Source: Candidatus Omnitrophota bacterium (GTDB taxonomy: Bacteria; Omnitrophota; Omnitrophia; JAHJGZ01). Taken from it: DNA of 36,856 bases. A program made the position numbers and the translations under genes. Location: positions 1-36,856 of the forward strand of contig JAHJGZ010000012.1 of assembly GCA_018823795.1 (NCBI GenBank), given 5' to 3'. The notes beneath the pieces are model-generated. The model saw only the letters and a list, made by a program, of their open reading frames with translations, was not told the origin of the DNA and ran no database searches. Shown piece after piece: positions 3,601 to 19,571 of this stretch; the stretch's first letter is position 1, and each line of letters starts with the position of its first letter.

Positions 3601-6600
3601 TAAACGTTTGCTCCCACTTCTCCTCATCGGTAAAGAGCGGCATGAAAACCCCGTCTGAAACAGCGGTAAGAGCATTCTGCAAATACTGTTTTGCATAAAA
3701 GACAACTTCAAGAGTGACTTCTTTTTCTGTTTCTTTAGGAGGAGGAGATGGTTTTTGTGCCCATGAGAGTTTTCCGGATACTGCGGCACTGAAACCAAAC
3801 GCTAAAAGTATTTTTATAAAGGTACGACGCGTGTGGGATCCACTTCTGGACATTGGTGCACCATTATTCGGTGCACACTGCTCGCGTAATTCATAATAGC
3901 GCTCTTTTGTCATTCCGTCTTTTCGTTCCTCGTCGGTTGCTGCTGCAAAAACCTGTTGAAATATTTCACCAAAGGAAAAAAGATGCTGGTACATATCAGG
4001 CCTTTTACCCCTCTTACTCAGGGCGGATAAGGTTCTTTGATTACCGATAAGTGCAAGCTTGTCAATGCCGCGGGTTTCATCAACCAGTAATAACGCCGGA
4101 TCATTGATAATCGAGGGAAAATACGTCGCTTTCTTCTTCGAGCGCACAAATGAAACTAATACAACCTTTTTTTCACCCCCTTGAATTCTTCGGGAGGTAA
4201 TTACATTATTGAGGAGTGCGTCCATTTCTTCGGCTGAAAGGCTTGCTTGTAATTCTTTATCTACTTGTATTTTTTTCTGAATCAACGCGACCTGGCCGTT
4301 GTACGGAGTAATGATCAGTATATCATCCGCCGTATACGGGGTCCCTTCTTCGCTCACTTTTCCTAAAAATTCCTTGAGTTTCGTTACAATCCACTCTGCT
4401 TCAAAGGTGTTAGAAAAACCGTCTTGTGCATCATAGTCATCATAGGCCTTACTTGATGACGTATCATACACACACAGGGTATTTTGCTTCACACGGTCTC
4501 CACGCTCATCACTTATGCTCTTAAGCTTCAGATTTTGATAAAAAAACTGTGCCAACTCAATGATCATCCAATGATTGCGATAATTTTTAAGAAGCCGGAC
4601 TCTATTAAATGTATTCCAATTGACTAATTCTTTAAAAAGACTGGTATTGTAACGATCGCGAATCTGCTCAAAATTTTTGGTTTCTTTCGTAACGCGCTCA
4701 GCAACCTGTTTTCCATGTCCCCTGAGCGTCGCCTCAAGGGGATATGAATCAAATTGAATATGGTCCCCCATCAGAATAAGACTCTCGGGCGAAAGATACC
4801 ACAACGTCGCAATAAGTTCCGGATAATTAATAAGAGCGGCTTCATCAACAATGATGGTCAGATTTTCCAAATACTGCTTTGCGTTCGGATTACGATGTAT
4901 GCGAAGTAGCCAGTCAAAATTGCCACCCATCGGGGTTGCGGCAAAAAGGCATCCTGCATCCCCCTTATTAGTATTGAGATCTCTATATGCCTCGGCAAAA
5001 CTTTTTCGTGCTGCTTCCGAACGCCGACTAAGGGAATCTTTAATATCCGGATCAAATTTATCTTCTGCCATGCCAAAACGATACATGGGCATCGCTCGTT
5101 CGCCTTTTTCTTCAACGTCACTGACAAAACGGTGCATAATATCATCCGCAAGTTTATGCTGCGGTGTGATAAGGAGCACCGGTTTTTTCTCTTCCAAAAC
5201 AAGATTCTTCACCCCTGCCATTAACGTCTTTGTCTTCCCGGTACCGAAGAAACCATGAATAAAAGCAAACGTTGATTTGATAATCATATTGACTGCGGCA
5301 CGTTGAAATTTGTCAAAACCTTCAGTGTACGGTCTGGCTTCTTCAAGCTCTTCGATAGTGATAATATCTTCAGGCGGTGCTCTCAGTCCTAAAAGATAAT
5401 CAAGGATGAAGTTTGCCGTTGTTGATGGATGCTCCTGCCCCTTCAGTGTAACCAGTGCATTAACCTTAATCGTTGCATGAAGCTGTTCTAACGCTTCACG
5501 CTGAGCACGTTCCTGTTGAAGATCAGGTGCCGTATAGAACGTTGTCTCTCTACCAGCCCGTTGGGTATCAATATTTCGAAAATGGCTTTTTTTCTTCTCG
5601 CTTCCTTCACTGATGTAAGCAACAACAGTTGTATATTTCCCGAATCTTTCGATTCGTTTTACGGTGAGCATATAATGAGTGCCCTTGAAATACATAGAAA
5701 TTTTTCTGCCGACATCAAGAGCGGCTGAAAATTCGTCTTTTAGTATCATCAATTCTATTTCAGCTTTCTCTTTCTGTTTTATCACGGAGTAGACCGCTAC
5801 CGGTTGTACGCCATGGGCTTCAATGCTCTTAAAAAGGTCGATCTGTCCTTGAAGGTGGCGCATAAGCACCGTAGGGTCAACGGGACGAAAATTCTCTTTG
5901 CGGAATAACGTAATGGCATCATCATATTCTAATTCTTTTTGGCGCCGGGCAATAGAGCCCCCCTCGGTTCCCGCAAAATCTGCCAGCACCACATCAACTT
6001 TTCCGTCGAGAACAAGACCGCCGAGCTCACGGGCCGTATCAATCGTTGTTTGTATGTGTTCAAGGGTAAACCGCTGTGCAATAAAAATGAAGAAACGCTC
6101 TGCCTGTGTTCCTTTGATACCATTAATAAGGTCGAGCCGTGTACGGAATGAATCAGGATCATAGTCACGGCAAAGGGCAACAAACGCGGCTCTCATTTTC
6201 TCTCCGACTTCTGAATTTTCATCAGGAAGCAGCTCAATTTCTTTCTGATACAATTTATAAGCCCGCAACATATTGATCTTAATTTTTTCGACACTAAAAT
6301 CAAGGCCAAGCTCATCGGCAATAATTTCTATGAGATCCCGTACCTTTCGAACCCATGCAGGGCCTAATTCCTCCTGCACGGCATCAAACGCACTTACCGG
6401 TTCCGCATCTACTTCCGTCACCGGTGGCTGAACCTGTTTTTCTGAAAACCGTTTGGCAATGCGCCTTGTTTCATAAAGCATTTCCAAAGCACTTTCCGTC
6501 CGCCGGATCATCTTCGAATGTTCAGATTTCGTCCCTTCTAAAAACCAGATAGATTCCTTGAGCTGAGTTATGGTAAGGTCACGCTGAGCGCGTTCCTCAG

Positions 6601-9600
6601 CAGTAAGCATATTATCTCCATTCAAAAGTACGATCTGTTTTTCAACCTTTTCCTCAAGCATACGTAAGAGCGAAGTGCGGTCATACGGAGGCAGCGTCGC
6701 TTTCGGTACATCGGTTATGTCACCGCCAAAACGGTTTTTAATTGCCTCGGAAGAAATCAGAAGTGGCATAGTAAGGCCGTCCAACCATTGCCCGCAACGA
6801 ATAATACCCGGTCGGATAGCTTTTAAATAGTCCTCATCACTACTTTCCGCAATGGCTTCTTCCCACTCGTTATGTATTGTGACGAGCGTTTCATAATGGT
6901 CTTCGTTAATAGTGCGATGCCGATACACCCGCTCAAGGGTATTCTTAAATCTATTTAAAAGTGTTGTCACTTCTTGTCTCGTTCGATCAATAGAAGGAAT
7001 CTTAAACGCTTTTATCTTAGGCACCGGAACAACAGGTTTTCTATCGGGCTCCTTTTTCTCTAGGGCCGCATCGGTACCTACTTTCAGCATACGGAGTGCC
7101 TCCTTTTCCCTTTTCTGTATCTCTGCTATTTTTCGCTGACGCCTACGTTCTTCACGTTCATTACGCTCAAGGGCAGTAAGAAAAACAGCAATACGCACCA
7201 GCTCTTTCTTAAACTGTTTGAGATTTACCGGTGTCTGAGTGTTACGTATCGCAGTGATATATGATTCAAGATGCTGCCGCAAGAGAACAAGATCATAGTC
7301 CATAGCACCTTTTTTCATCTGCTGATACTTATTAATCTGAAGCACTAACCGTTCTAATACAGTCAACACAGCACGTTTCTCTTTTTTTTGAAGATTGCCT
7401 GCGATAAGAGGAAGTGGCACTGAAATAGTACGCAATTGATCGGGAGCGTTTTCAATGAGCGGAAAATATTCGAATGGTTCCATAATTTCCCCTTGTTTGA
7501 GCGATCGACGCGCAAACCATTTTTGAAGTCTATACTGAATGAGATTACATAAAAAATGGAGTATGGTCGTTTCAATACTGAGGGAAACAAAAATATTCCA
7601 TGGCGTAAAAACCGGATACCAGGACAGCATAACACCACTGACAATAGTAAAGATGCTAATACCTAACGCTATGGGTTCAGGTACTCCTTCATACTCCTCA
7701 TGCAAAGTTTCAAAATAAGCACTATTTGCTGCGATAAAAATTCCAATAAAGAATATTTCGAGCATCATTAACCAGAGTGGCGTAACCGGTAATATATCCG
7801 GTGTAAATGCTATAAGGGCAATTAATGGAAGTCGTGAGGCAAGAAATAACTTAACGAATCGTTCTATGCGCCCTATGAACCCTATGGTGCTTTTTGTAAC
7901 CATGCCAATCAGGCCGAGCAGAATAGCTGTTTCTTCCAGCGGAGCAAGAAAAAATTCTGTCACAAGTTCAGGCGCCCCGAGTTCTCGGCCAATATCTTGT
8001 GTATACTTTGTCGTTGCTTTCCATCCGGCACCGTCGCGTCTTTTCGTTTTTTGTGTAGATACTTCGCTCCTGCCGGTTTCGGCATGTGAAAAATAAGGCT
8101 GGGCGAGCAGAAGATGTTCATATTCAGACTGCATGACCTGAGAAAATTTTTCAAGATCTATCTGCTTGTCGATGGTATCGCCAAGACGCGTACGTACACT
8201 CTCAGTAACAATCGTGGTAACTTTTGCAGGCATATCACCCAGTGTGTATCCTTCACTGAGTAATCGGTCAATAAGCTTTTTTTCAACGATCTCATCATAA
8301 ATAGTTTTTAATGCATCGGCAATGAGCGTATCATGCGGCTTACCGCTTTCGGTTAATCGCGCAATAAGTTCCTTCACGTGTGCGGGGGATACTAATTTCC
8401 CTTTCATATTAAGCAAGGTTTCTCCGAGAATATCTTTTTTTGCCGTGCGGCGAATATCATTAAAAAATGTTTCATTAATAGCCTGCACAGAACTATTCAG
8501 CCGGCTGATTTGAAATGAACTGGTAAACAGAGGATCGAGCGGTGCAATATGTCCCATCATACGATTTAAATACGCGACATCTTCTACGGCACTATCCAGA
8601 TGGGGTGTTACCGTAAGATAGGAAATACCTCTTTCTTTAAGTAATTGTATAATGCTCTCTGAATGATATCCGCCGGCAACAAGGACACCGACCAATTGTC
8701 CGGTCTCATCCATTTTTTTTATGAGGTTATCTACCATTGCCCGGTCTCGTTTATCGGCATAGGCATAGAATTGGTCGATACAGTCAAACATCTGTTCTCT
8801 GTTAATGGTATCGGCAGAATGCGGTCTGCCGGCACCGAAGTTGCTGTCAAGCTCTGCTATCTCATCACCGATCACTTTAAACGCGTACTGCTCTCGTTCC
8901 TTCCGAAATTTTTCCACATCTTCTTTCTGTGCTCTGAGTGCAACAAGCTGCTTAAGGTGCATGATGCGTTCAGCTAATGCAATAAGTTTTCTTTCATCAC
9001 GAGAGGTAGCTAACCGATTTCTTATTTCATGAGTAACCATGCGCGTATCTCGTACCAGTGCTGCCATATCAAGCAGTGCGGCTTTATTCTCATGGATGTT
9101 CTGCGATACTTCTTTGAATTGTGCAAGATGGACATACTCAAACACATCTATCTGTAATTGTTCTATTTTTTCATACACTACAGGAAAAAATTCGAGCAGT
9201 GCCAGGGAGCCATTTTCATACTGAGCGGCGGTCTCATCAAAGCTTTTTAACCGCTTATTATATGTTGCTTCCTTGAGGCGCATTACGTGCTCTTCAAGAA
9301 TACGTATCTCCCCTGCAAGCTCTTTGTGTTTGAGCATCACAGTATAAAAAGCACGGTACTCGTCGCGGAATAAATCCTTATCTTCAAGGCCGTAAAGAGT
9401 AAAATCGTTATCAGCAATAATATTAGCGAACTCCGCCCCAATAAATTTTCCCTCTTGTACATATTCTGCACCGACTGCCTCTTTTGTTTCCTGAATAGGA
9501 AATTCCCTAAGCTCTTTAAGGTCGTAGGAACCGACAGCACCTTCAATTCCAATGAAAGGAACAGAGGTCAGATTTTTCTTTTCTGTTGTCTGTTTTCCGT

Positions 9601-9871
9601 CTTCTGTTTTCTTAATTTGTGGAATCAAATCACAGATTATCCTCGCAAGGTTTTTCTGTGCTTCAAAACTGGAATGGGCATCCTGAATGTTGATGATGAC
9701 TTTTTCCGAGGTGCCTTTATATCGTTGTTTAACCTTTCCATATTTCTCTGGTACGCGGACCTTATAGGCAAAGTCCGGGCTTGACCACACAATGGTATTG
9801 GTGGCAAACACTACCATAATCAACAAAGCAATTATTTTAAGCATCGTACTATGCTTCATATAATTCATCAT
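665..9871 (-). CDS. Giant membrane protein 1: shared N-terminal domain, CPBP-like block, SF1 helicase, internal Tat-like signal
   Basis: This 3068-residue ORF is unbroken. Residues 5-31 form a signal peptide. Residues 38-500 match giant protein 2 (QDAH at 63-66, GIEG near E110, AGGYH at H403) and look like a ChaN/TraB-type fold, by motif resemblance only. Residues 640-790 hold about five membrane segments with partial CPBP-protease motifs: EE at 646-647 without the usual Arg, FETLH 720-724, HFLCN 772-776. Coiled coil follows (about 820-940). A UPF1-like SF1 helicase occupies about 1400-1960: Walker A GTGKT 1543-1547, DEAA from D1676, GDHIQ, RIQGGE with Q1897, and a TRG arginine. An internal Tat-like signal runs 2007-2038. 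Further membrane segments lie near 2620-2650 and 2780-2800, then a Pro-rich linker and an unknown C-terminal domain. The start overlaps the transposase gene by 23 nt; Met-Met at 1-2 and Met5 are alternative starts. Overall function is unknown. Confidence 0.85.
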   Translation of the reverse strand: MMNYMKHSTMLKIIALLIMVVFATNTIVWSSPDFAYKVRVPEKYGKVKQRYKGTSEKVIINIQDAHSSFEAQKNLARIICDLIPQIKKTEDGKQTTEKKNLTSVPFIGIEGAVGSYDLKELREFPIQETKEAVGAEYVQEGKFIGAEFANIIADNDFTLYGLEDKDLFRDEYRAFYTVMLKHKELAGEIRILEEHVMRLKEATYNKRLKSFDETAAQYENGSLALLEFFPVVYEKIEQLQIDVFEYVHLAQFKEVSQNIHENKAALLDMAALVRDTRMVTHEIRNRLATSRDERKLIALAERIMHLKQLVALRAQKEDVEKFRKEREQYAFKVIGDEIAELDSNFGAGRPHSADTINREQMFDCIDQFYAYADKRDRAMVDNLIKKMDETGQLVGVLVAGGYHSESIIQLLKERGISYLTVTPHLDSAVEDVAYLNRMMGHIAPLDPLFTSSFQISRLNSSVQAINETFFNDIRRTAKKDILGETLLNMKGKLVSPAHVKELIARLTESGKPHDTLIADALKTIYDEIVEKKLIDRLLSEGYTLGDMPAKVTTIVTESVRTRLGDTIDKQIDLEKFSQVMQSEYEHLLLAQPYFSHAETGRSEVSTQKTKRRDGAGWKATTKYTQDIGRELGAPELVTEFFLAPLEETAILLGLIGMVTKSTIGFIGRIERFVKLFLASRLPLIALIAFTPDILPVTPLWLMMLEIFFIGIFIAANSAYFETLHEEYEGVPEPIALGISIFTIVSGVMLSWYPVFTPWNIFVSLSIETTILHFLCNLIQYRLQKWFARRSLKQGEIMEPFEYFPLIENAPDQLRTISVPLPLIAGNLQKKEKRAVLTVLERLVLQINKYQQMKKGAMDYDLVLLRQHLESYITAIRNTQTPVNLKQFKKELVRIAVFLTALERNEREERRRQRKIAEIQKREKEALRMLKVGTDAALEKKEPDRKPVVPVPKIKAFKIPSIDRTRQEVTTLLNRFKNTLERVYRHRTINEDHYETLVTIHNEWEEAIAESSDEDYLKAIRPGIIRCGQWLDGLTMPLLISSEAIKNRFGGDITDVPKATLPPYDRTSLLRMLEEKVEKQIVLLNGDNMLTAEERAQRDLTITQLKESIWFLEGTKSEHSKMIRRTESALEMLYETRRIAKRFSEKQVQPPVTEVDAEPVSAFDAVQEELGPAWVRKVRDLIEIIADELGLDFSVEKIKINMLRAYKLYQKEIELLPDENSEVGEKMRAAFVALCRDYDPDSFRTRLDLINGIKGTQAERFFIFIAQRFTLEHIQTTIDTARELGGLVLDGKVDVVLADFAGTEGGSIARRQKELEYDDAITLFRKENFRPVDPTVLMRHLQGQIDLFKSIEAHGVQPVAVYSVIKQKEKAEIELMILKDEFSAALDVGRKISMYFKGTHYMLTVKRIERFGKYTTVVAYISEGSEKKKSHFRNIDTQRAGRETTFYTAPDLQQERAQREALEQLHATIKVNALVTLKGQEHPSTTANFILDYLLGLRAPPEDIITIEELEEARPYTEGFDKFQRAAVNMIIKSTFAFIHGFFGTGKTKTLMAGVKNLVLEEKKPVLLITPQHKLADDIMHRFVSDVEEKGERAMPMYRFGMAEDKFDPDIKDSLSRRSEAARKSFAEAYRDLNTNKGDAGCLFAATPMGGNFDWLLRIHRNPNAKQYLENLTIIVDEAALINYPELIATLWYLSPESLILMGDHIQFDSYPLEATLRGHGKQVAERVTKETKNFEQIRDRYNTSLFKELVNWNTFNRVRLLKNYRNHWMIIELAQFFYQNLKLKSISDERGDRVKQNTLCVYDTSSSKAYDDYDAQDGFSNTFEAEWIVTKLKEFLGKVSEEGTPYTADDILIITPYNGQVALIQKKIQVDKELQASLSAEEMDALLNNVITSRRIQGGEKKVVLVSFVRSKKKATYFPSIINDPALLLVDETRGIDKLALIGNQRTLSALSKRGKRPDMYQHLFSFGEIFQQVFAAATDEERKDGMTKERYYELREQCAPNNGAPMSRSGSHTRRTFIKILLAFGFSAAVSGKLSWAQKPSPPPKETEKEVTLEVVFYAKQYLQNALTAVSDGVFMPLFTDEEKWEQTFKDQKIGSQTFNPRACGQYMNDLYLVVIDSRRRLKLDMPDYSGFTKKMARDHQAVIKDMLTVIDKRTHIPGKKNLLVPATSKNRLYMAYVMHVDNKIAQVGYVVNEIDFLRVQALRLVRNKFLIGLHTRDENDEGVLFEQFKMLKEKAQVSGFSESELQRITDDYIMKIFKKMIPGVPPQKVLATDLRVPAMRDFLALAFVHFVTYIQKKGEATPGIGFHSTAKELLGAVLDKLLTEEEMIFNIRQYYNIDFDEAHNAFEYYKSEGIEKIRREIAEMIEINLWQRRTWTDAAFFYEHVVLPWFKMVESGDRLEPHLEMTICNRFSTLFHLPEAVRTKQKVKQSGDLLFKLVTVWREEIYAQPSVDIGTIIEDLRTITRQAHIEITSMEDNIPRKIFHFRLIGDPIRIQEKDTLKEISTIDYFGIVSRDDFGRSTGYIIYKEDKLMLAISETRMQLDDISSTMKGDFTLPGVTEESMKNAGISFEHKAFLDSMTDMFRLDLQEILYKERMRKMLQTVAVNNVIQLVIPDEAELGILVNIASAIAGIIYGPLPHFTLAVLFRFMLNEVIKKTGTHKMQKIMKRELETLWDTTQKRRRKEITVAELCTRMRKLYAIFRKEITYLPDLARHEKFFKRVETMVGDHFDRALVQNEKDPDGWEVRQKTVDTVLASIAEKKREDELFRAKEIARITRRKKWSILVAASGVCGAAMSIVKEAMKKSILKEKMKDQDNGDDSSGKDKKREVPPAVTPVKEAAVTKPSPPAEPMTLQVDDEEPSEIAEHASFKEVIQDDIHRELLRAAKKLLAAMIARKKIKTDVDRSDDILFVVADERLDEDELKRLKESVEKRFFTIFEKSIVSCDALSVAVKRIAEFNAMDTIAAETVVVFVGTESRDILLVKEDHRERVQAWTSLGGNKEHRSVFITFLFPYIITALLGGKGEIVLEQVVDQNGNLLGKGIFMRISDFMAAVKRDATEKLVKQAA
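3856..3876 (-). repeat. Hairpin just upstream of internal Met2007 of giant protein 1
   Basis: GTGCACC (3856-3862) and GGTGCAC (3870-3876) form a perfect 7-bp stem with a 7-nt loop. It ends 2 nt before the in-frame ATG (3853-3851) that begins the internal Tat-like signal. It sits exactly at the join between the helicase part and the Tat-led part. It could be a fossil of a former intergenic region. Confidence 0.5.
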
Positions 9872-10430
9872 TCTCCCATTCGCCCGGATTATTGATAATG
9901 TATTCGCATATTTTGTTCAATTCACACTCATTTCGTATGATGTGATCATAAAATGACCGCTGCCATAATTTTTTATCAAATGGTTTCCAATCATATGCAC
10001 GAACGCCATGCATATATTTGTTTGTTGTCATTGTTTTAAACCATTGAATGATTTGTGACATCCCCATCGTTTTTTCATTCGGGCAGGCACGTGGGTCTGC
10101 CCCTACATTCGCATTCGTACCATCATGATGTAGGGGCGAACCCATGTGTTCGCCCGTCGTATTTCCTGACCCGATTATGATAATGCCATGAATATGTTTG
10201 GGCATAATAATGTAATGATCAATTGAAATATGGTCGAATTTTTTTGACAATCTATTCCACATGTCATCAACCATGGTCCCCGCATTATTCAATACCATAT
10301 CGCCATTAACAACATCGCCGAAACAACAGGTGCGGTCTTTGTTACATATGGTCACAAAATAATACCCATTCTTTGAATAATCATACTGTGATAACCGCAT
10401 TGATTTTTTTCTCGTTTTCATTTGTTTCAC
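9849..10430 (-). CDS. REP-associated tyrosine transposase (RAYT, Y1/HUH family)
   Basis: This 193-aa product is a Y1-type single-strand transposase of the REP-associated group. These enzymes nick and join single-stranded REP palindromes. The family signature is clear: an NGYYFVTICNKDR-like N-terminal strand, the metal-binding HIH at His79/His81 (PKHIHGII), and the catalytic tyrosine region SFYDHIIRNE with Tyr161. Length is normal for the family. Residues about 90-118 are an insertion encoded by REP-like palindromes. The GTG start overlaps the TGA of the HTH-PilZ gene (GTGA), which suggests translational coupling; an ATG three codons in is an alternative. The last 23 nt overlap the start of giant protein 1. 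RAYTs are normally single-copy, non-IS genes, so its place inside a riboswitch-led operon is unusual. Confidence 0.9.
   Translation of the reverse strand: MKQMKTRKKSMRLSQYDYSKNGYYFVTICNKDRTCCFGDVVNGDMVLNNAGTMVDDMWNRLSKKFDHISIDHYIIMPKHIHGIIIIGSGNTTGEHMGSPLHHDGTNANVGADPRACPNEKTMGMSQIIQWFKTMTTNKYMHGVRAYDWKPFDKKLWQRSFYDHIIRNECELNKICEYIINNPGEWENDELYEA
10081..10155. repeat. Pair of REP-like palindromes inside the RAYT gene (BIME-like)
   Basis: Two 22-nt imperfect palindromes lie at 10081-10102 (arms GGGCAG/CTGCCC) and 10134-10155 (arms GGGCGAAC/GTTCGCCC). Between and overlapping them is a perfect 9-bp inverted repeat, CCCCTACAT (10100-10108) / ATGTAGGGG (10128-10136). The whole folds as a double or nested hairpin like a BIME. 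It stays in frame and is translated as a Gly/Pro/His-rich insert between the HUH motif and the C-terminal half of the transposase. Confidence 0.7.
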
Positions 10431-11135: not shown

Positions 11136-11183
11136 TAAAATGAAAAAGCCAGTTACACATATTTTTCATATATGTAGCTGGCT
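11136..11183 (-). terminator. Intrinsic terminator serving as the riboswitch expression platform
   Basis: On the minus strand a 16-bp stem with one G-T pair and one mismatch (5' arm begins AGCCAGCTAC, 3' arm ends ACTGGCT), with a 5-nt loop, is followed by TTTTCATTTT. Bases 11174-11183 of the 5' arm are also the conserved 3' end of the c-di-GMP-I aptamer, so aptamer and terminator cannot form together. This predicts that ligand binding prevents termination (an ON switch). Confidence 0.8.
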
Positions 11184-11286
11184 GTCTTAAGCTTCCGAAA
11201 ATCCTTTGGACGTTATTCTAATCCATTAGGCCTCTTAGACCCTTTAGCTTTGTGTCACTGTCTTTCGACAGTTTTACCTCACTTAA
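11174..11286 (-). promoter_or_regulatory. Cyclic di-GMP-I (GEMM-I) riboswitch
   Basis: On the minus strand the leader shows the GEMM-I core in order: GGTAAA (11278-11273), a perfect 6-bp P2 stem ACTGTC-GAAA-GACAGT with a GNRA tetraloop (11272-11257), then GACACAAAGC (family consensus GACGCAAAGC), GGGTCTAAG, a variable P3 region, and GACAGCCAGCTAC as the 3' strand. A short outer TTAAG/CTTAA pairing encloses most of it. The class binds c-di-GMP with the GAAA loop docked on P3. It sits between a good promoter and a terminator, upstream of an HTH-PilZ gene, a c-di-GMP-binding protein family, so the context fits. One core base differs from the common consensus (GACA for GACG), and P1 looks short. 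Confidence 0.8.
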
Positions 11287-11301
11287 AAATAATTTGTTCA
11301 A

Positions 11302-11329
11302 AGTATAGCATATCTCATTGCAATTACAA
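11302..11329 (-). promoter_or_regulatory. Promoter of the riboswitch-HTH-PilZ-RAYT-giant 1 unit
   Basis: On the minus strand TTGTAA (11329-11324) is followed by a 16-base spacer and TATACT (11307-11302), preceded by TGC as an extended -10. The start would fall near 11295, a few bases upstream of the aptamer. The promoter lies 137 bp downstream of the giant protein 2 stop codon, so the two giants need not be co-transcribed. No clear terminator was seen between that stop and this promoter. Confidence 0.65.
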
Positions 11330-11438: not shown

Positions 11439-14400
11439 TTAAGCGGCGATCTTGAAGAGTTGCGTCCGTACTGCCTTGATAAGTTCTTTATTCACCCGTT
11501 CCAGGCTTTCCTTGGCAAGGGTAAACACCCCATTTTCGAAGTCAAATAAATGTTCATACACATTTTCAGGAATGCTATCACCGCCGCGCTGGAGTGATTC
11601 AATATATTTTGCAAGTAAAACAAGTAAGATACTATGGAAAAAGGTGATCTCTGTCGTTGCATTTTTCTGGGAAAAGGCAAATGCTTTTGATTTTGCTTCT
11701 TCAAGGCCGAGGTCCTCATTGTCCATCTGAAGCAGCAGTGCATAATCACCTCGTTTGACCGCATCGTTATCGATCGCATCACCCCGGTCGATACGGATGG
11801 TAATATTGCGTTTTGTAAATTCTTCATTCTGTAAAATAGTTTCAATAGCAGGGATCAAATCCTTATTTGTCACAACCCCTTCTGTAATACCGATCCGAAA
11901 AATCCCTTCCTGTCCAGAAACAAGTAACTGGTCAAAGATCTCCCATACATTGCCGATATTCACGCCGCCGTCGCGGAACATCTTGGTTGTCTCCTCCTGC
12001 CACTGCCCAAGAAGCGAGAGGGATTCAGCATATTTATCCATTGCCATAAACGCAGTTATTAAAAGCTCATCATCAGTTATTAATGTAGAAACTGCCTGTG
12101 CCACATTAGATCGATTAACATCATCAAGCGCCATCTGCCGTACTACACGTCTCATGGTATCAGTATCGGTTAACTGATCTTTTGTAATACGATTTTGGGC
12201 TTCGACTGGAATAATACCGCGCTTAAAAAGTTCGAGGCGGTTACGATAGGTGAGCCACAGTTCTTCAAAATATTCGACATCATCTTTTCTTTTCGGATCG
12301 AGTAAGTCACCTTTGCGGTTTAAAATTGTTGCAATAATTTCACGTTCCCGCTCATCAACCCGATTACTTTCATGCCAGAATTCATGAAAAAGTTTTATAG
12401 CTGCTTCGATGCGATACTCATGAGAAGTAAGAGCTTTTTGAAAGAGGTTAAAAGGAATATAGATAACCCCGTCATTCGTTCCATCATGAAAATATCTATC
12501 ACCCTTTTTATCACTAATGTGTATTTTTCCTTGCTCCTCCATAAAATCGCCGATAAGGCTAAAAGAATCCCGTTTTATTCCTTCAATCAATGTTCCTAAA
12601 AGATTGATCATCTGCTGTTTTACCGCATCAGTAAGCAACCCTTCTGATACATCAAATTCTATGGTCACACCGAGCAGTGTACTATCCTGTGCAAGCCGGT
12701 ATTCTCCCACAACAAATGCTGCAGCCTCAGGAACACTGACTTCGTCAACACCCCCTTCCAAATCATCTTTTGGGCTGAACCGCAGTTTCCCCTTTCTATA
12801 TTGACCAAGGAGATAACGCATGATAGCTGCGATTTCGTCTTCATTATGGATATCGCCAAATCGTCTTTGTATTTCAAGTGCTTGATTATAGATATTAAAA
12901 GCCAGCCACCGGAGGCCATCGGTCTCTTGCAACACTTCACTATCCCGTCTGATACGAGCTTCTTTGTACTCATTCAGAAAATTGAGCCAAAAACGGGGAG
13001 TCTCTTTCATCAAGACTGTTGTCTTACCTTCAAGGTAATCCGCAATATGTTCTGCAAGCATTTGAATTTCTGCTGCACTTACTTCAGGTACTGCATCTAC
13101 CTCATCTTCTATCCGTGCTTGCTGTTCAGCTTCAGCAGCTTCCAGACTCTTCTTGAGCTGACGCACTTGCCGGTCAATGTGATCACGCATAGCAACTGCA
13201 TGTTCGAGATTCCATACGGTATGATTATTTTCCTCTTTTACGGTCGCCGCAATATGACGCAAAAGAGTAATGAGGGATACTGCCTCATCTTCATTGATGG
13301 TAGGCTCAGCCTCTCCTTCCACAGGAAACTGCTCAGCAAAACGGGTCCAGTAGCCCGGATCACTCATATACTGCTGCTCAGGGTACGTAATAGCGGCTCC
13401 TTCATTCTCTGGTTTCTCAAAACGGGTGATATTCCCCTCAATTTTTTTTGCGATAATCTTTAATAATGTAATATCTCTTAACGTAACGGCTTTCGTCACG
13501 ACCCTTTCGACAACAACAAACATTTCTTTATAAATCCGATAATCAGGATTTCTGGTAATAGCCGCCACCTGTCGGTTAGAATCAAAAAAGTCGGTGAAGT
13601 GGTCTAAAATATCTTCCCTATTATGATCGGTTATGAGGCTTGACGGAAAGGCTATTATTTTGAGGAGAACCGCGGCAAATCCAAGACACACATCAAGGCC
13701 GTACGCTTTCCCCAGCCCTCGTAATAGTACCGCTATCTCGTCGGAGGTGATTTTTTCAGGAGACTGGTCAAAATCAAACGCACTCTCTAAACTCGCCAAT
13801 TCTTTTTTTGAAATCGTACCGTTTTTTCTGACGTCCATTAAAATTTCACGGACCGACTTTTCTTCCAGAAGTTTTTCTCCATTTGCCATTGACTGGGAAT
13901 CGCTGTAGTGGATTGTCCCGATCGTTTCTTGTAAATTTTCAGGCTTATACTGCCCTCTGTTATCTTTATATTTCTCTCCTTTATATTCAAAAGCTTCACC
14001 ACGCCCTGTATCCTTAAATATTCCAAACCGATACCCCACTAACCTTGTTTTCGTCCCTTTTATCAATTTATCACCGCCGATACCGTTTTCTGTCCACACC
14101 ATGCCTACCGGCGCATCTTTGGGGCCAAATCCATTTTTGAAGAGGGCTTTATCTATCAATACCCCTAAATCGGTTGCGTCTTTTTCAGATTCTGTGTAGA
14201 TGGCGATGACTTTCCCCCGTTGTGTTATCGATTTCCCTGTTGCTTGATTTAATTCATTAAGCACATCCATGTTCATAGCGACTTTATGAATCGTATTATG
14301 GCGTTGAAGCAGCGGCAGGACTACCTGAAATATTCTTGCTGCATTGTCTTCACGAGCTGCCACATGTAATTTCCATCCCCCTTCCGGTAAATCAGCAATA

Positions 14401-17400
14401 GTTCTGGCTTCGCCATTTTCGCGTTTACCCCAGAACACGCGCCATGGCGGCCACGGCTCATATTTTCCTTCGTCAAAAGGGGCATACCGCACAAAGGGAT
14501 CAGTGATACCAATATCAAAAAAATCTTCTTCTGCAATCTGTCCGGCAAGTTTTCCAAACACACCATTCAAGAGGGTTAAATGCCGCGCTTCTTCCATAAA
14601 GGTATCCAATGCTCCTTCCCGAACCGCATCTACACGCTTAAGAAGCATCGTACGAAGCGCTACAAAATCTTCTCGCTCCCTCTTGTCCCTAAAAGTAAGA
14701 TATTTCTTCATTGTCTCTATACTCAATGGAAACTGATCGCTGCTCAACAATATCATTTCCGCACGGTGAAAGATATCGTAGATACTTCCTAACCTTTTAA
14801 GTTCCCGCTGAACAGTAGCAATATCAGGCAGGTCAGCAAATAAAGAGAGCGCTTTTATCAGCCGCCGTTGATTATCAGAGACGAGTGTAAGAAATTTGAG
14901 ATCGACCTCAGCTCCATCATCGGCAGGCACCGGGGTAGGCTCTTTTATTTTTGCTTCAGGTATTGCCTCGATCAGTGCTGCATCATCAAGTTTTGGTTTT
15001 TCTCTTTCTGCCTCAGGTATTGCCGCTATCAGTACTGCGGCATCGGCGAAACCTGCATACTCGCGCAATGCATTATCGTGTTGCAATAGCTGGTTCGCTG
15101 CTCTCATGTAACGATCTGCTAATCCATCTTGCACTTGATTCGCAACTTTCAAAAGTAATGCCCTGATGCTTCTAAAACCCTCTTTTCTCTTTTCTCTAAA
15201 AGACATATACTCCCGTACCATTTGTTTGCTTAAGTCGGCTCTCGCCTCACTCAATAGCATATGTACCAATTCAATAAATATCTGTGGCCGTCCTGTACCA
15301 CTTTGAACATCTTGGATAATTTGTTCAAGATCAGCTTGCTGTGCTATATGAGCCAGTACGCTAATAAGTCGCGTCTGTTCATCGGACAGTTTACTGAAAA
15401 GCTCTCGTCCCTCTTCCTCATCAAACGTATCCTGAGCACTGTAGCGACGGCGTTCTTCTTGGAGTGGAACATCAAATGCCCCTTTTTTATTAATATTTAA
15501 ATTATCTTCATTAAAAAAGGTTAATTTTTGAAAAGATCCACCTATATTCATTAGTCGATTAATATGATTAGTTCTTGCATCAGTTTTGTCATTTTTAAAT
15601 ATATCTCCGATCAATACAAAACTTACCCACATGATCCCATCTGTATCGATTTTACCAACCACTAAAGGAACCTGAGCTCCGCGGATATTCCACAGTAACA
15701 TGTCACCTTCTTTTAATGACTGAACATCTGTGTCTGAAAGCTGTACCAATGTAACCAATGTGTTTTCCACTGATTCCTTAATCCTTTGTAACAGTTGGTC
15801 ACCCATTTCCTTATTATCCTTTAATACATTGTCAATGCCGCCCATCTCCTCAATATAATCTTCTCTTTCGGTTGGATGGAGCCACGATATTCTGTTTATT
15901 TCTTTGGTTAATGCCATAATGGTACGAATATCGCCTACATTTTTCAGCATTTCAACAAACCTACTGAGAGCTAAATTTTGTCCGCTTTTCAACTCTTTTG
16001 ATGGAATATTGTGCATCTTCAATAAAATTGTTACCGATTCTTTATATCGTCCTTCTTTAAATGTACTAACAAACTGTCCCTGTAAGTCATTAAAACTTTC
16101 ACCTTTTATTTCTAAAAATTCTGACTGATTTACTAAATCGGTAATTTCGTCTTTAGCTGCTTCAATAGTCAAATCTTGACTGAAGGCTTTCTCAATAACT
16201 TGTTTGACTACCGAATTTTTAATATGTAATCCTTCGCCTATTCTCCTTAGCTGTTTTATGCGAAAGTCTCTTCCACTTTGTTCGTCGCGTAATGTACATA
16301 ATGCATGTGCAAAAAGTAAAAAGTTTTCTTTGGCCTTTTCCGCCCCCTCCTCCTCATCAAACGTATCCTGAGCACTGTAGCGGCGCTTTCCATCAGATAA
16401 GAGGGTGCTCCTGACGGTCTCCTTCTTCAATGCTGCATTTCTTGTATGATAATCACGAATGACTTCCTCATCGGTTGGTTGATATGAGATTAATTCTCTT
16501 TCGTATGTCATACGGGAACGCTGAATACCTTCCGCCATTTTTTTTGCTATTGCTCTGTCTAATCCGAAATAAGATACTAATTCTGTTTCCGCACTTCTGC
16601 GAAGTGTCTTCATAAAAACATCCAAATCATGTGCTTTATCATCTTCATTATCATAGAATCCTTTTCCTATATTTTCACTCACGCTTGAAACAAGGATGAT
16701 ATTATAGACAAACAGTTCGTCATGATATTCATTAATAAAAGCTGCGAGTGCCTGCCCCATCTCATGGGCAATCTTTTTAAGCCACTGAACAGCTTCTTGA
16801 TTGCCTCTTTGGGCTTCATGGGTAAGCGTTTTTAGAGTAAAAAGGCTTCCTGCTTCTTTAAGCCGGCTCTCTAAACCAGGCCCGGCAAGTCTATCCTCCA
16901 TATCTCGTAACCCTGATGCCCAGTCAAGTATCGGATAGTCCGGATATTGTTCTTCAAATTTTTTTCTATCGTTCACATATAACTTGCCAAAATCACCACT
17001 TTTTCGAATTATTTCCTCATCGGTATTTCCCTGCTCAATAGGATGTCTTCCTTTCGCTTTTTGCCCTACCCATTGATAATGAAGTGTATCATCAGTCGGA
17101 TTGCAAACTTGAATACAACTGTGCGCACCTTCGTAAATATCTTTTGTCAACCCGGTATAATTCCTTCCTTCTTTTTTAACCGTAATATTGCCGCCTGTGC
17201 CAAAAATCACAATAGCCCCGTCGTCAACATCTTTTAAGAGACCCTGCGGCGAAAAGGTTTCACCGCGTAGTGCACCGATTGCATCATTATAGATTGTAAC
17301 AGCAACAGATATACCAGCATTGTCGAGTATCCTTCGCAATTCGTCCCTAAAAGGATATTTATTAAACGGAAGATTGGGTGCGGGAAACTCTTCGCCATAT

Positions 17401-19571
17401 ATTCCTTCTTCTTCATTAACGGGTCCCGCAAGACTCGCACTTACCTGTGCAATAGTCTCTTTTTCTATTTTGTTTTTTTCGAGAAGCCTCTCTATCGTTT
17501 GAGCAACAATCCTCATAACGTCATTGGCATCTTTTGGATCGAGCGATTTTTGTTTTGTCTTCCAGTCATCAAATACGTCATCCCACTTGACTTCATCATA
17601 AAATAGAATTGCATTATGTCCGTCAAGTCCAGCAACCGCAAGTTTAGTACCTCCCATTGATATACCGATATGGCGATATGACGATCGTGCTTCATCTATC
17701 TCCTGCGCACTGTAGCGTACTTTGGGAACGGCTCGGGAAAGTTTTCCAACGACATCCTGTATATAACTCTTATTATTTATTAACGTGTGTATATCATTGA
17801 TGACTGTATCAGTCGGTATCTCATCTTTGCTCGCAGTCATTGCATCGCGGACAATCTGCTCCGAAACGTCCCAAATCGCATCAGCAACCGGCCTGAAGTG
17901 TTCGTCTTGATCAACACGAGCCTGGAGTTCTGCGGCCCAGTCGATATTTTCTGCAGTTCTTTTCCTGACATTATCGATAAAATTCCTGATCACGCCGTGA
18001 AGTTCTGCTTCATCGGCAATGGCAGGAAGAAGCGCGTTTAATCTACTCACCTGTAAATTGCTCGTAAGATGCGAACTGAGTGGAACGACTTTGCCCAGCA
18101 TCCGGTCCATATACGCACCATCACTGGCAAGGGAACTTATGTTTGGCACAACGGTCACAAAAGAAAGGTCCTGTTCTTTGAGTAATTTTAAAATACCGGA
18201 TGAATGATAGCCGCCAGCAACTAAGACGCCGACATCCTGTTTTTTGGTATCCATTTTCGTAAGAAGATTATCAAGCATCGCCTTATCCCGTGCTTCAGCT
18301 AAGGTGTAAAACTCATCGACATCTTTAAGGAGCATATCAATATCAACAGCGGGTTGTTTAATATCAATAGTGAGAGAGGCTCGATGGGCAAGGCGTTTTA
18401 TTTCCTGAACCATTGTTTCAATAGTATACAGATCCTGGTGATTTCTAAACGCAGCAACATCTTCTTTGACCGCTTTAAGTGCTAAAAGACTCTTCAGACG
18501 CGTAATCCTCTGCGTGAGGTCGATAAGTAGTTTTTCATCCTCGGTAACGGCAAGGTGATTTCTAATTTCGTGATTAATCGCATAAACTTCGTTTAAAAGT
18601 TGTGCAATATCAACCATCGCAAATTTATTCCAGTACTGCTGAGCGCGCAGTATGGTCTGATATTCGTGTAGCGCAATCTGTGCCTGCACTGCCTTGCCGC
18701 ATACGTAGGAAACGATCTCTTTCTGTGTAATTTTTTCTGCCTTGTAGTTTTGGTAGTATTCTGCTACTCCCGCATCGACAAAAGTCATTACGAGATCTGC
18801 AAGCTGTTCGATTTCAGTATCGAGCTCTTCGTAGTCAATGGTCTGCTCAAGGAGAAAAGCCTCTTTAAATTGCATAAGTTGTACATGATTCACGAGATCG
18901 ATATCAAAGGAATCTATCTGCTCGTAGAGGAGTCCGAGATATTCAAGAAAAAAGGCTTGGTCTTTTTCATAGCGTGATGCATCTTTATCAAACGCTTTGA
19001 GCTCATCATTATAGATGGCACCTTTCAGTAACGCAATATAGCCTTCCAATATTTCCAGTTCTTTTTCCAAATCATCCTGCTTCAATGCAACGGTATAAAA
19101 TGCCTTAAAATCTTTATGGAAAAGCTCCGTATCTTCAAGCCCCCACAACTCGATATCCTTCTTTGATGAAGCAGCGGCAAGTTCAGCCCCCGTAAATATA
19201 CCTTTCCGTACAAAATCTTCTCCAACTGCTTTACGTGCTTCTTCAAGCGGAAACTGTCTGAAAGGGACCATATTCACTTTTCCCATTGCTCCTTCAACAC
19301 CAATAAACGGTGTCTTATCACTACCCAGTTGCGGTGTAATATGCTGGATAATTTGCGCAAGGTTTTTTTGTGCTTCAAAACTGGCGTGGGCATCCTGGAT
19401 ATGGATAATTACTCTTTCAGACTTCCCTTTATAGCGTTGTGATACTTTGCCATTTTCCTCAGGGACGTTAATCGTATAGGCAGACGGTGCCGCAGAAAGT
19501 ATTGTCGTAAAGCTAAAAATACTTACGGTCACCACAGCCATTATTTTTGTGAGTTTGGTGTTTATAGTCAT
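11439..19571 (-). CDS. Giant protein 2: shared N-terminal domain, ROK-like kinase, lyase-like domain, HEFWH motif
   Basis: This 2710-residue ORF starts with a Sec-type signal peptide (residues 1-28) and the same domain as giant protein 1 (QDAH 59-62, GVEG near E93, AGGYH with H456). RYSAQ linkers at 619, 1064 and 1376 divide the rest. Residues about 630-1000 look like a ROK sugar kinase: GGTK 640-643, Asn762-Asp763 with Asp as likely base, and GTGG 791-794. The ROK CxCGxxGC zinc motif is missing. Two helical units (about 1390-1500 and 1556-1665) are a tandem duplication. Residues about 1730-1860 resemble the phosphothreonine-lyase domain of class III/IV lanthipeptide synthetases (WKLH with H1736; K1763). 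An HEFWH at 2396-2400 suggests a zinc peptidase. The C-terminal part is unassigned. A signal peptide on a kinase-like protein is odd, since ATP is scarce outside the cytoplasm. Overall function is unknown. Confidence 0.85.
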   Translation of the reverse strand: MTINTKLTKIMAVVTVSIFSFTTILSAAPSAYTINVPEENGKVSQRYKGKSERVIIHIQDAHASFEAQKNLAQIIQHITPQLGSDKTPFIGVEGAMGKVNMVPFRQFPLEEARKAVGEDFVRKGIFTGAELAAASSKKDIELWGLEDTELFHKDFKAFYTVALKQDDLEKELEILEGYIALLKGAIYNDELKAFDKDASRYEKDQAFFLEYLGLLYEQIDSFDIDLVNHVQLMQFKEAFLLEQTIDYEELDTEIEQLADLVMTFVDAGVAEYYQNYKAEKITQKEIVSYVCGKAVQAQIALHEYQTILRAQQYWNKFAMVDIAQLLNEVYAINHEIRNHLAVTEDEKLLIDLTQRITRLKSLLALKAVKEDVAAFRNHQDLYTIETMVQEIKRLAHRASLTIDIKQPAVDIDMLLKDVDEFYTLAEARDKAMLDNLLTKMDTKKQDVGVLVAGGYHSSGILKLLKEQDLSFVTVVPNISSLASDGAYMDRMLGKVVPLSSHLTSNLQVSRLNALLPAIADEAELHGVIRNFIDNVRKRTAENIDWAAELQARVDQDEHFRPVADAIWDVSEQIVRDAMTASKDEIPTDTVINDIHTLINNKSYIQDVVGKLSRAVPKVRYSAQEIDEARSSYRHIGISMGGTKLAVAGLDGHNAILFYDEVKWDDVFDDWKTKQKSLDPKDANDVMRIVAQTIERLLEKNKIEKETIAQVSASLAGPVNEEEGIYGEEFPAPNLPFNKYPFRDELRRILDNAGISVAVTIYNDAIGALRGETFSPQGLLKDVDDGAIVIFGTGGNITVKKEGRNYTGLTKDIYEGAHSCIQVCNPTDDTLHYQWVGQKAKGRHPIEQGNTDEEIIRKSGDFGKLYVNDRKKFEEQYPDYPILDWASGLRDMEDRLAGPGLESRLKEAGSLFTLKTLTHEAQRGNQEAVQWLKKIAHEMGQALAAFINEYHDELFVYNIILVSSVSENIGKGFYDNEDDKAHDLDVFMKTLRRSAETELVSYFGLDRAIAKKMAEGIQRSRMTYERELISYQPTDEEVIRDYHTRNAALKKETVRSTLLSDGKRRYSAQDTFDEEEGAEKAKENFLLFAHALCTLRDEQSGRDFRIKQLRRIGEGLHIKNSVVKQVIEKAFSQDLTIEAAKDEITDLVNQSEFLEIKGESFNDLQGQFVSTFKEGRYKESVTILLKMHNIPSKELKSGQNLALSRFVEMLKNVGDIRTIMALTKEINRISWLHPTEREDYIEEMGGIDNVLKDNKEMGDQLLQRIKESVENTLVTLVQLSDTDVQSLKEGDMLLWNIRGAQVPLVVGKIDTDGIMWVSFVLIGDIFKNDKTDARTNHINRLMNIGGSFQKLTFFNEDNLNINKKGAFDVPLQEERRRYSAQDTFDEEEGRELFSKLSDEQTRLISVLAHIAQQADLEQIIQDVQSGTGRPQIFIELVHMLLSEARADLSKQMVREYMSFREKRKEGFRSIRALLLKVANQVQDGLADRYMRAANQLLQHDNALREYAGFADAAVLIAAIPEAEREKPKLDDAALIEAIPEAKIKEPTPVPADDGAEVDLKFLTLVSDNQRRLIKALSLFADLPDIATVQRELKRLGSIYDIFHRAEMILLSSDQFPLSIETMKKYLTFRDKREREDFVALRTMLLKRVDAVREGALDTFMEEARHLTLLNGVFGKLAGQIAEEDFFDIGITDPFVRYAPFDEGKYEPWPPWRVFWGKRENGEARTIADLPEGGWKLHVAAREDNAARIFQVVLPLLQRHNTIHKVAMNMDVLNELNQATGKSITQRGKVIAIYTESEKDATDLGVLIDKALFKNGFGPKDAPVGMVWTENGIGGDKLIKGTKTRLVGYRFGIFKDTGRGEAFEYKGEKYKDNRGQYKPENLQETIGTIHYSDSQSMANGEKLLEEKSVREILMDVRKNGTISKKELASLESAFDFDQSPEKITSDEIAVLLRGLGKAYGLDVCLGFAAVLLKIIAFPSSLITDHNREDILDHFTDFFDSNRQVAAITRNPDYRIYKEMFVVVERVVTKAVTLRDITLLKIIAKKIEGNITRFEKPENEGAAITYPEQQYMSDPGYWTRFAEQFPVEGEAEPTINEDEAVSLITLLRHIAATVKEENNHTVWNLEHAVAMRDHIDRQVRQLKKSLEAAEAEQQARIEDEVDAVPEVSAAEIQMLAEHIADYLEGKTTVLMKETPRFWLNFLNEYKEARIRRDSEVLQETDGLRWLAFNIYNQALEIQRRFGDIHNEDEIAAIMRYLLGQYRKGKLRFSPKDDLEGGVDEVSVPEAAAFVVGEYRLAQDSTLLGVTIEFDVSEGLLTDAVKQQMINLLGTLIEGIKRDSFSLIGDFMEEQGKIHISDKKGDRYFHDGTNDGVIYIPFNLFQKALTSHEYRIEAAIKLFHEFWHESNRVDEREREIIATILNRKGDLLDPKRKDDVEYFEELWLTYRNRLELFKRGIIPVEAQNRITKDQLTDTDTMRRVVRQMALDDVNRSNVAQAVSTLITDDELLITAFMAMDKYAESLSLLGQWQEETTKMFRDGGVNIGNVWEIFDQLLVSGQEGIFRIGITEGVVTNKDLIPAIETILQNEEFTKRNITIRIDRGDAIDNDAVKRGDYALLLQMDNEDLGLEEAKSKAFAFSQKNATTEITFFHSILLVLLAKYIESLQRGGDSIPENVYEHLFDFENGVFTLAKESLERVNKELIKAVRTQLFKIAA
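14935..15045 (-). repeat. Imperfect tandem repeat in giant protein 2
   Basis: Two back-to-back units encode DAAVLIAAIPEAEREKPK and DDAALIEAIPEAKIKEPT. Together they form an Ala/Glu/Pro-rich linker. It separates two homologous helical modules (about residues 1390-1500 and 1556-1665), so the linker repeat and the module duplication are probably connected. Confidence 0.6.
15415..15446 (-). repeat. 32-bp direct repeat, copy A (RYSAQDTFDEE linker)
   Basis: This 32-bp sequence is identical to 16351-16382 and encodes RYSAQDTFDEE at residue 1376 of giant protein 2. It immediately precedes the first duplicated helical module. Identical DNA, not just identical protein, points to recent duplication or gene conversion of the linker. 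Confidence 0.8.
16351..16382 (-). repeat. 32-bp direct repeat, copy B (RYSAQDTFDEE linker)
   Basis: Identical to 15415-15446, 936 bp away and in the same frame. It encodes residues 1064 onward of giant protein 2 and follows the ROK-like module. A third, diverged copy is at 17690-17717. Confidence 0.8.
17690..17717 (-). repeat. Diverged RYSAQ linker copy at the entry to the ROK-like module
   Basis: Encodes RYSAQEIDEARSS from residue 619, the same linker as the two 32-bp copies but with several base changes. It lies directly before the GISMGGTK phosphate loop, so all three copies mark module boundaries. Confidence 0.6.

Follow-up and report, generated by a model that had tools for sequence, protein, structure and literature searches.

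In Geobacter sulfurreducens, 17 GEMM-I riboswitches make up a regulon whose targets are cytochrome, pili and polysaccharide genes (PMC6456294). The pilM element of Geobacter metallireducens, a GEMM-Ib ON switch, combines an aptamer and a terminator that are mutually exclusive, with the terminator sequestering the ligand-pairing C, and Cd1, a c-di-GMP-I element, is an OFF switch (PMC9262584). At the protein level, MrkH is a PilZ-type c-di-GMP transcriptional activator (PMC3161979) that binds DNA via its PilZ domain (PMC5055493). Giant ORFs are a hallmark of the phylum Omnitrophota, and have been described as having TM helices, few annotated domains and poor conservation, and tied to host attachment or predation (PMC10066038); the terms riboswitch, c-di-GMP and PilZ are absent from that paper. 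We found no paper in the open-licence literature, to which our search was limited, that joins Omnitrophota with c-di-GMP.

The window analyzed here, i.e., the whole stretch of 36,856 nucleotides, is one contig (C151) of the genome of a Candidatus Omnitrophota bacterium (GenBank assembly GCA_018823795.1; 3.19 Mb in 250 contigs, 99.25% complete, 5.6% contamination). Its features are collected in Table 1.

Table 1. Features of the riboswitch locus and of the neighboring giant genes in the window.
Feature	Position	Strand	Support
Second QDAH giant, 2710 aa, upstream, with ROK-like and RamC/lanthionine-synthetase N-terminal-like regions	11439..19571	(-)	
Putative sigma-70 promoter, TTGTAA - 16 nt - (TG)C TATACT	11302..11329	(-)	9/12 consensus + extended -10
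c-di-GMP-I (GEMM-I) riboswitch aptamer with 49-nt P3 insert	11170..11288	(-)	RF01051, 59.9 bits
Intrinsic terminator hairpin AGCCAGCTACATAT...ATATGTGTAACTGGCT, then TTTTC	11147..11183	(-)	fold -18.6 kcal/mol
HTH_17 + PilZ protein, 177 aa	10427..10960	(-)	Pfam HTH_17 45.1 bits, PilZ 36.1 bits, both above cut-off
REP-associated tyrosine transposase-like (Y1_Tnp) gene, 193 aa, overlaps both neighbors	9849..10430	(-)	PF01797, 24 bits
Giant, 3068 aa: signal/TM segment, QDAH domain ~40-440, TM helices, IGHMBP2/SF1-helicase-like region 1520-1950	665..9871	(-)	

A preliminary description of this DNA had proposed, without giving a strand, a GEMM-I core followed by an overlapping terminator, and had named a covariance search with RF01051 as a check. 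This search (Rfam covariance models) gave a match on the minus strand over the full model (positions 1-87 of 87, E 1.9e-9), above the gathering cut-off of 35 bits, and a search of the whole window gave no other Rfam match. All the named motifs, i.e., GGTAAA, ACTGTC-GAAA-GACAGT, GACACAAAGC and AGCCAGCTAC, are found in the aptamer, and the criterion of a P2 with a GNRA tetraloop and an A-rich conserved strand with the A47 equivalent is met by the second and third of these. The equivalents of the ligand-site bases G20, A47 and C92, in the numbering of the Vc2 structure, are all kept, and the ligand-contact bases in the Rfam alignment are the G preceding UAAA and the C within GCUAC. One departure from the consensus is compensated, with GGUAAA...GACAC in place of GGCAAA...GACGC and so a U-A pair in place of C-G. 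The window riboswitch is therefore a further member of the known c-di-GMP-I class (RF01051), with which it shares the full model match, the P2 GAAA tetraloop, the ligand-site bases and a 5′ leader with terminator. It differs in its P3 insert, which is common to four other copies in the genome, in heading an operon whose first gene encodes an HTH-PilZ protein, and in that the genome's copies are used ahead of a giant-protein family.

GEMM-Ib elements also match RF01051, and ON switches of the terminator type, e.g., pilM, are among them (PMC9262584; PMC6456294), so that the aptamer could in principle respond to 3′,3′-cGAMP and not to c-di-GMP. We regard this as very improbable, given that position 20 is G in the window aptamer and in the other copies read, that PilZ proteins, i.e., c-di-GMP receptors, are co-encoded (13 PilZ matches in the genome, together with 11 GGDEF matches), and that the Hypr motif GxxGS occurs in none of the 10 GGDEF domains read in the genome, 9 of which have GxxGD and one GxxGN. 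A GEMM-Ib identity, which would call for A20 and for a Hypr GGDEF in the genome, was rejected on G20 and on the lack of the Hypr motif in the domains read. Because the GGDEF proteins that could be read lack the Hypr serine, c-di-GMP is the expected ligand and a likelier one than cGAMP; binding is inferred.

The terminator does overlap the aptamer as had been proposed: the hairpin AGCCAGCTACATATATGAAAAATATGTGTAACTGGCT, followed by TTTTC, begins within the aptamer, whose P3 3′ strand, with the ligand-pairing C, doubles as the 5′ arm of the hairpin (11183-11170). The aptamer and terminator folds are therefore mutually exclusive, and an ON switch is thus predicted, so that the ON logic of the preliminary description is upheld as a prediction, with the behavior itself inferred. 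This is the same exclusive-fold logic, with the ligand-pairing C in the terminator, as in the pilM switch (PMC9262584), but pilM senses cGAMP, whereas G20 and the lack of Hypr motifs in the GGDEF domains read indicate c-di-GMP in the Omnitrophota genome. The free minimum-energy fold contains the terminator (-42.0 vs -32.1 kcal/mol with P3 forced), and read-through therefore requires co-transcriptional ligand capture. At low c-di-GMP, the nascent leader would form the terminator, which takes up the P3 3′ strand with its ligand-pairing C, and transcription would end; at high c-di-GMP, the bound aptamer would keep this strand and RNA polymerase would read through into the overlapping operon, i.e., the genes for the HTH_17-PilZ protein, the REP-type transposase-like protein and the 3068-aa QDAH-family giant.

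Of the promoter that had also been claimed, a well-placed candidate (TTGTAA-16 nt-TGCTATACT) is present, with its -10 ending 13 nt upstream of the aptamer and with a score that beats 96% of shuffled upstream sequences and is reached by only 4%, but the claim is not proven: sites with 9 of 12 consensus matches are as frequent in the region as expected by chance, and because of this we consider the promoter no more than plausible on sequence grounds. A promoter common to all the riboswitch copies was unsupported (mean best score 7.84 vs 7.35 in shuffles). The terminator is separated from the PilZ gene by another palindrome, and it cannot be ruled out that the PilZ gene has its own promoter. Co-transcription of the three overlapping genes, across this palindrome, is inferred.

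Our survey of the genome identified 17 c-di-GMP-I elements, i.e., 16 at E ≤ 1e-3 (15 of them above the cut-off) and one degenerate element in contig C67. Twelve of the 17 lead to genes of the QDAH family, to which both giants in the window belong, and a thirteenth (C188) leads to a different giant of 2049 aa. At 11 loci (C136, C151, C46, C117, C110, C44, C50, C103, C72, C176 and C67) at most small genes lie between the element and the QDAH gene, and the C209 element reaches its QDAH gene across an intervening 1395-aa gene. We judged this linkage against relatives, because an in-genome chance estimate rests on an assumed gene count: a QDAH gene was present within the fetched stretch at 1 of 80 riboswitch loci in the relatives, compared with the 12 of 17 here (Fisher P about 1e-10). 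The stretches fetched from relatives had a median of 3.8 kb, some being ended by contig ends, and just one of the sampled relatives, 77% complete, is of the same order. In the genome itself, 16 of 28 QDAH genes have no preceding riboswitch, and QDAH genes in most relatives are without riboswitch control. As a proposed cyclic-dinucleotide regulon, this set is similar in element number to that of G. sulfurreducens (PMC6456294), but differs in its targets, which are cytochromes, pili and polysaccharides there and, at 12 of 17 elements, one giant family in the Omnitrophota genome. Elsewhere in this genome, the element in C215 (L018) lies ahead of a pilin-like (N_methyl) operon, and its terminator does not overlap the aptamer. 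Several Omnitrophota relatives (L254, L239, L264, L272, L267, L292 and L274) have c-di-GMP-I aptamers in tandem, seen as neighboring same-strand matches.

All 13 giant-linked elements have an overlapping terminator. The P3 3′ strand was found to serve as the 5′ arm of the terminator at 12 loci, and the same holds for the C67 element and for an element in the relative G011. The terminator arms at the 12 loci fall into four sequence groups (AGCCAGCTG..., GCCGGGTTGC..., AGCGTACCG... and GAGCTCACC...), with the 3′ arm altered correspondingly in each, and pairing averages -21.3 kcal/mol with the arm's own partner vs -6.9 kcal/mol between groups; both arms therefore changed together. The terminator in C176 has lost its T-run. 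In C72 (L030) and C176 (L031), a palindromic, probably REP/MITE-like insert of ~100-130 nt lies in the riboswitch P3 loop, where the Rfam match stops, with the true 3′ strand and the terminator coming after it. In the degenerate C67 element (L309/L042; 26.8 bits), which lies before a QDAH gene and keeps the overlapping terminator, an insertion lies between P2 and the GGAGGCAAAG strand.

These terminators bear on the possibility that the riboswitch is real but its terminator constitutive or its logic OFF, in which case the PilZ-giant operon would not be ligand-gated. The fold with the terminator is favored by ~10 kcal/mol over the one constrained to the aptamer, and OFF switches, e.g., Cd1 (PMC9262584), exist among c-di-GMP-I elements. 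However, OFF logic of the Cd1 type requires aptamer and terminator to coexist, and here they cannot, since one strand is common to both, an arrangement that recurs at 13 loci, where the arms co-vary; we consider a constitutive or OFF element improbable. With no expression or binding data, and with ligand and ON direction inferred, we hold with good confidence that the window element is a transcriptional c-di-GMP-I riboswitch, of ON type, reading into the HTH-PilZ/giant operon. Variants of this switch head 12 QDAH giant genes, in one case with the 1395-aa gene in between, as well as a giant outside the family, and c-di-GMP would in this way co-induce a giant regulon.

A BLAST search with the window element identified four full-length copies with 79-85% identity, in which similarity runs from the aptamer start to the terminator end. 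Comparison of the window with C50 demonstrated a gap-free block of 80 nt, spanning the P3 insert, with 95% identity, against ~40% identity in the upstream DNA and 24% identity between the proteins; the two DNA values are ungapped, gapped ones having been discarded because random sequence reached 72-74%. Shuffled sequences fold as well as the P3 insert, and for this reason recent common origin accounts for its near-identity better than any shown structural constraint, although such constraint cannot be ruled out. The riboswitch-bearing QDAH proteins are not one clade, with the protein tree needing at least 3 label changes, and this, together with so similar a switch block on such dissimilar proteins, favors copying or gene conversion onto diverged genes. 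The comparison suggests that the switch block spread by copying within the genome. Passive linkage, i.e., one ancestral riboswitch and QDAH gene duplicated in tandem without a selected c-di-GMP regulon, would agree with the clustering of riboswitch-bearing members on the protein tree beyond shuffled labels and with several QDAH genes adjoining one another, but the label changes, the 95% identity of the switch cores against 24% for the proteins, and the expression platforms kept, with co-varying arms, at distant members all make it unlikely. In the fullest form of the copying proposal, a cassette of aptamer and overlapping terminator (~135 nt) would have been copied onto a dozen already diverged giant genes, making a c-di-GMP giant regulon, and at the ancestral-type locus, with its conserved HTH-PilZ pairing, a single operon would sense the messenger both through RNA and through protein; for this complete proposal, we see the case as evenly balanced.

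The product of the first gene had been described as a PilZ protein, and its PilZ domain (PF07238) has both motifs of the PilZ receptor criterion, RxxxR (RQFPR) and NxSxxG (NLSCGG). What had been missed is the excisionase-type HTH_17 domain fused to it, in the sole HTH_17-PilZ fusion found in the genome. This protein is probably a c-di-GMP-responsive DNA-binding regulator, with DNA binding inferred. Like MrkH (PMC3161979), it is a PilZ protein proposed to regulate the transcription of surface-related genes in response to c-di-GMP, but whereas MrkH uses its PilZ domain for DNA (PMC5055493), the PilZ domain in the window is joined to an HTH_17.

In other genomes, HTH-PilZ, or its HTH part, lies directly upstream of a same-strand QDAH gene in 10 of the 13 best homologs, one of these 10 being an HTH-only gene and one an HTH fused directly to the QDAH protein. 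RxxxR is kept in all 8 HTH-PilZ homologs linked to QDAH genes, and the [DN]xSxxG motif in 6 of the 8. In contig C183 of genome G044 (L336), HTH_17 is fused in frame straight onto the signal segment and QDAH domain of a giant. The association holds in one direction, from HTH-PilZ to QDAH: HTH-PilZ was found ahead of none of ~108 QDAH loci from other genomes, and we rejected it as a general rule for QDAH genes. The suggestion in the preliminary description that RNA and protein sensing of one messenger at a single locus is unusual gained a second, independent case in contig C129 of G011 (L340), from another family of the same class, where a riboswitch (74.1 bits) with overlapping terminator is followed by HTH-PilZ and then by a QDAH gene. 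HTH-PilZ is probably the older and more widespread QDAH partner, and the riboswitch a further c-di-GMP input gained by this lineage and by one relative. Beyond dual sensing at a single locus, the most unusual feature is the genome-wide placing of the c-di-GMP-I elements before the QDAH family.

The gene between the PilZ gene and the giant was absent from the preliminary description. Its product passes the Y1_Tnp cut-off (23 bits) only narrowly, and with NF047646 (REP-associated tyrosine transposase) it reaches 60.2 bits, below the cut-off of 80; we therefore claim only that it is Y1_Tnp-like. Genes of this Y1_Tnp/RAYT-like kind end at the start of a QDAH gene in three cases in the genome, i.e., at 9849-9871 in the window and at L044 and L046 (C162).

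The last gene, previously noted as encoding a giant membrane protein, can now be placed as a member of an Omnitrophota giant family with a common N-terminal domain, and its SF1 helicase-like domain had gone unmentioned. Like the giant ORFs described for this phylum, the window giants have TM helices and few annotated domains; few domains and poor conservation are described for those ORFs, and riboswitch, c-di-GMP and PilZ are not mentioned there (PMC10066038). An internal Tat-like signal, MSRSGSHTRRTFIKILLAFGFSAAVSG, lies at about residue 2010 of the 3068-aa protein, as if two genes had been fused. Ahead of the 2710-aa giant, even permissive thresholds gave no riboswitch, and all that lies there is a palindrome lacking a T-run. 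Both products have an N-terminal region of ~500 aa that recurs in many further giants of the genome and in which a signal/TM segment precedes the motifs QDAHxxxxAQ, EGAxG and GGYH. We identified about 28 such QDAH genes in the genome, with open frames of up to 13,298 aa, and members in 54 of 58 relatives, with frames of up to 35,113 aa; in GTDB genomes, stretches with the family numbered 384, and the best 80 of these are titled as Omnitrophota or related.

No Pfam family covers the QDAH domain, and it has no significant sequence match in the PDB. Its AlphaFold2 model is confident (pLDDT 85.7), and a Foldseek search of the PDB with this model gave nothing at E ≤ 0.001; a link to the erythromycin-esterase fold (EreC, rank 9, E 1.2) was too weak to claim. 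In the 58 genomes, all 7 sub-threshold matches to PF04187/PF01963 (ChaN/TraB) are in QDAH proteins, and ChaN matches occur in 4 of 52 QDAH members, with no score above the cut-off in either case; these sub-threshold profile matches alone suggest that the domain may be distantly related to the ChaN/TraB (Tiki) superfamily. The regions behind the QDAH domain vary greatly, from SF1 helicase-like in the window giant to ROK-like and RamC-like in its neighbor. A pyruvate:ferredoxin oxidoreductase-like region that is nearly complete is found in the C50 giant (L025:1742-10336), together with a signal/TM segment and a QDAH domain, and this combination is odd for an exported protein. Any role of the QDAH giants is inferred.

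As far as could be checked, neither such a c-di-GMP giant-gene regulon nor an HTH-PilZ module paired with a giant family has been described. The control and function of Omnitrophota giant ORFs are so far unclear (PMC10066038). The QDAH domain marks one large, phylum-wide family of them, and c-di-GMP is a concrete candidate for a signal that would turn on a set of giants. Probing of the riboswitch and binding by the HTH-PilZ protein are both feasible without culturing the organism, and the set of loci offers a case for studying the spread of a riboswitch across a genome to form a regulon.
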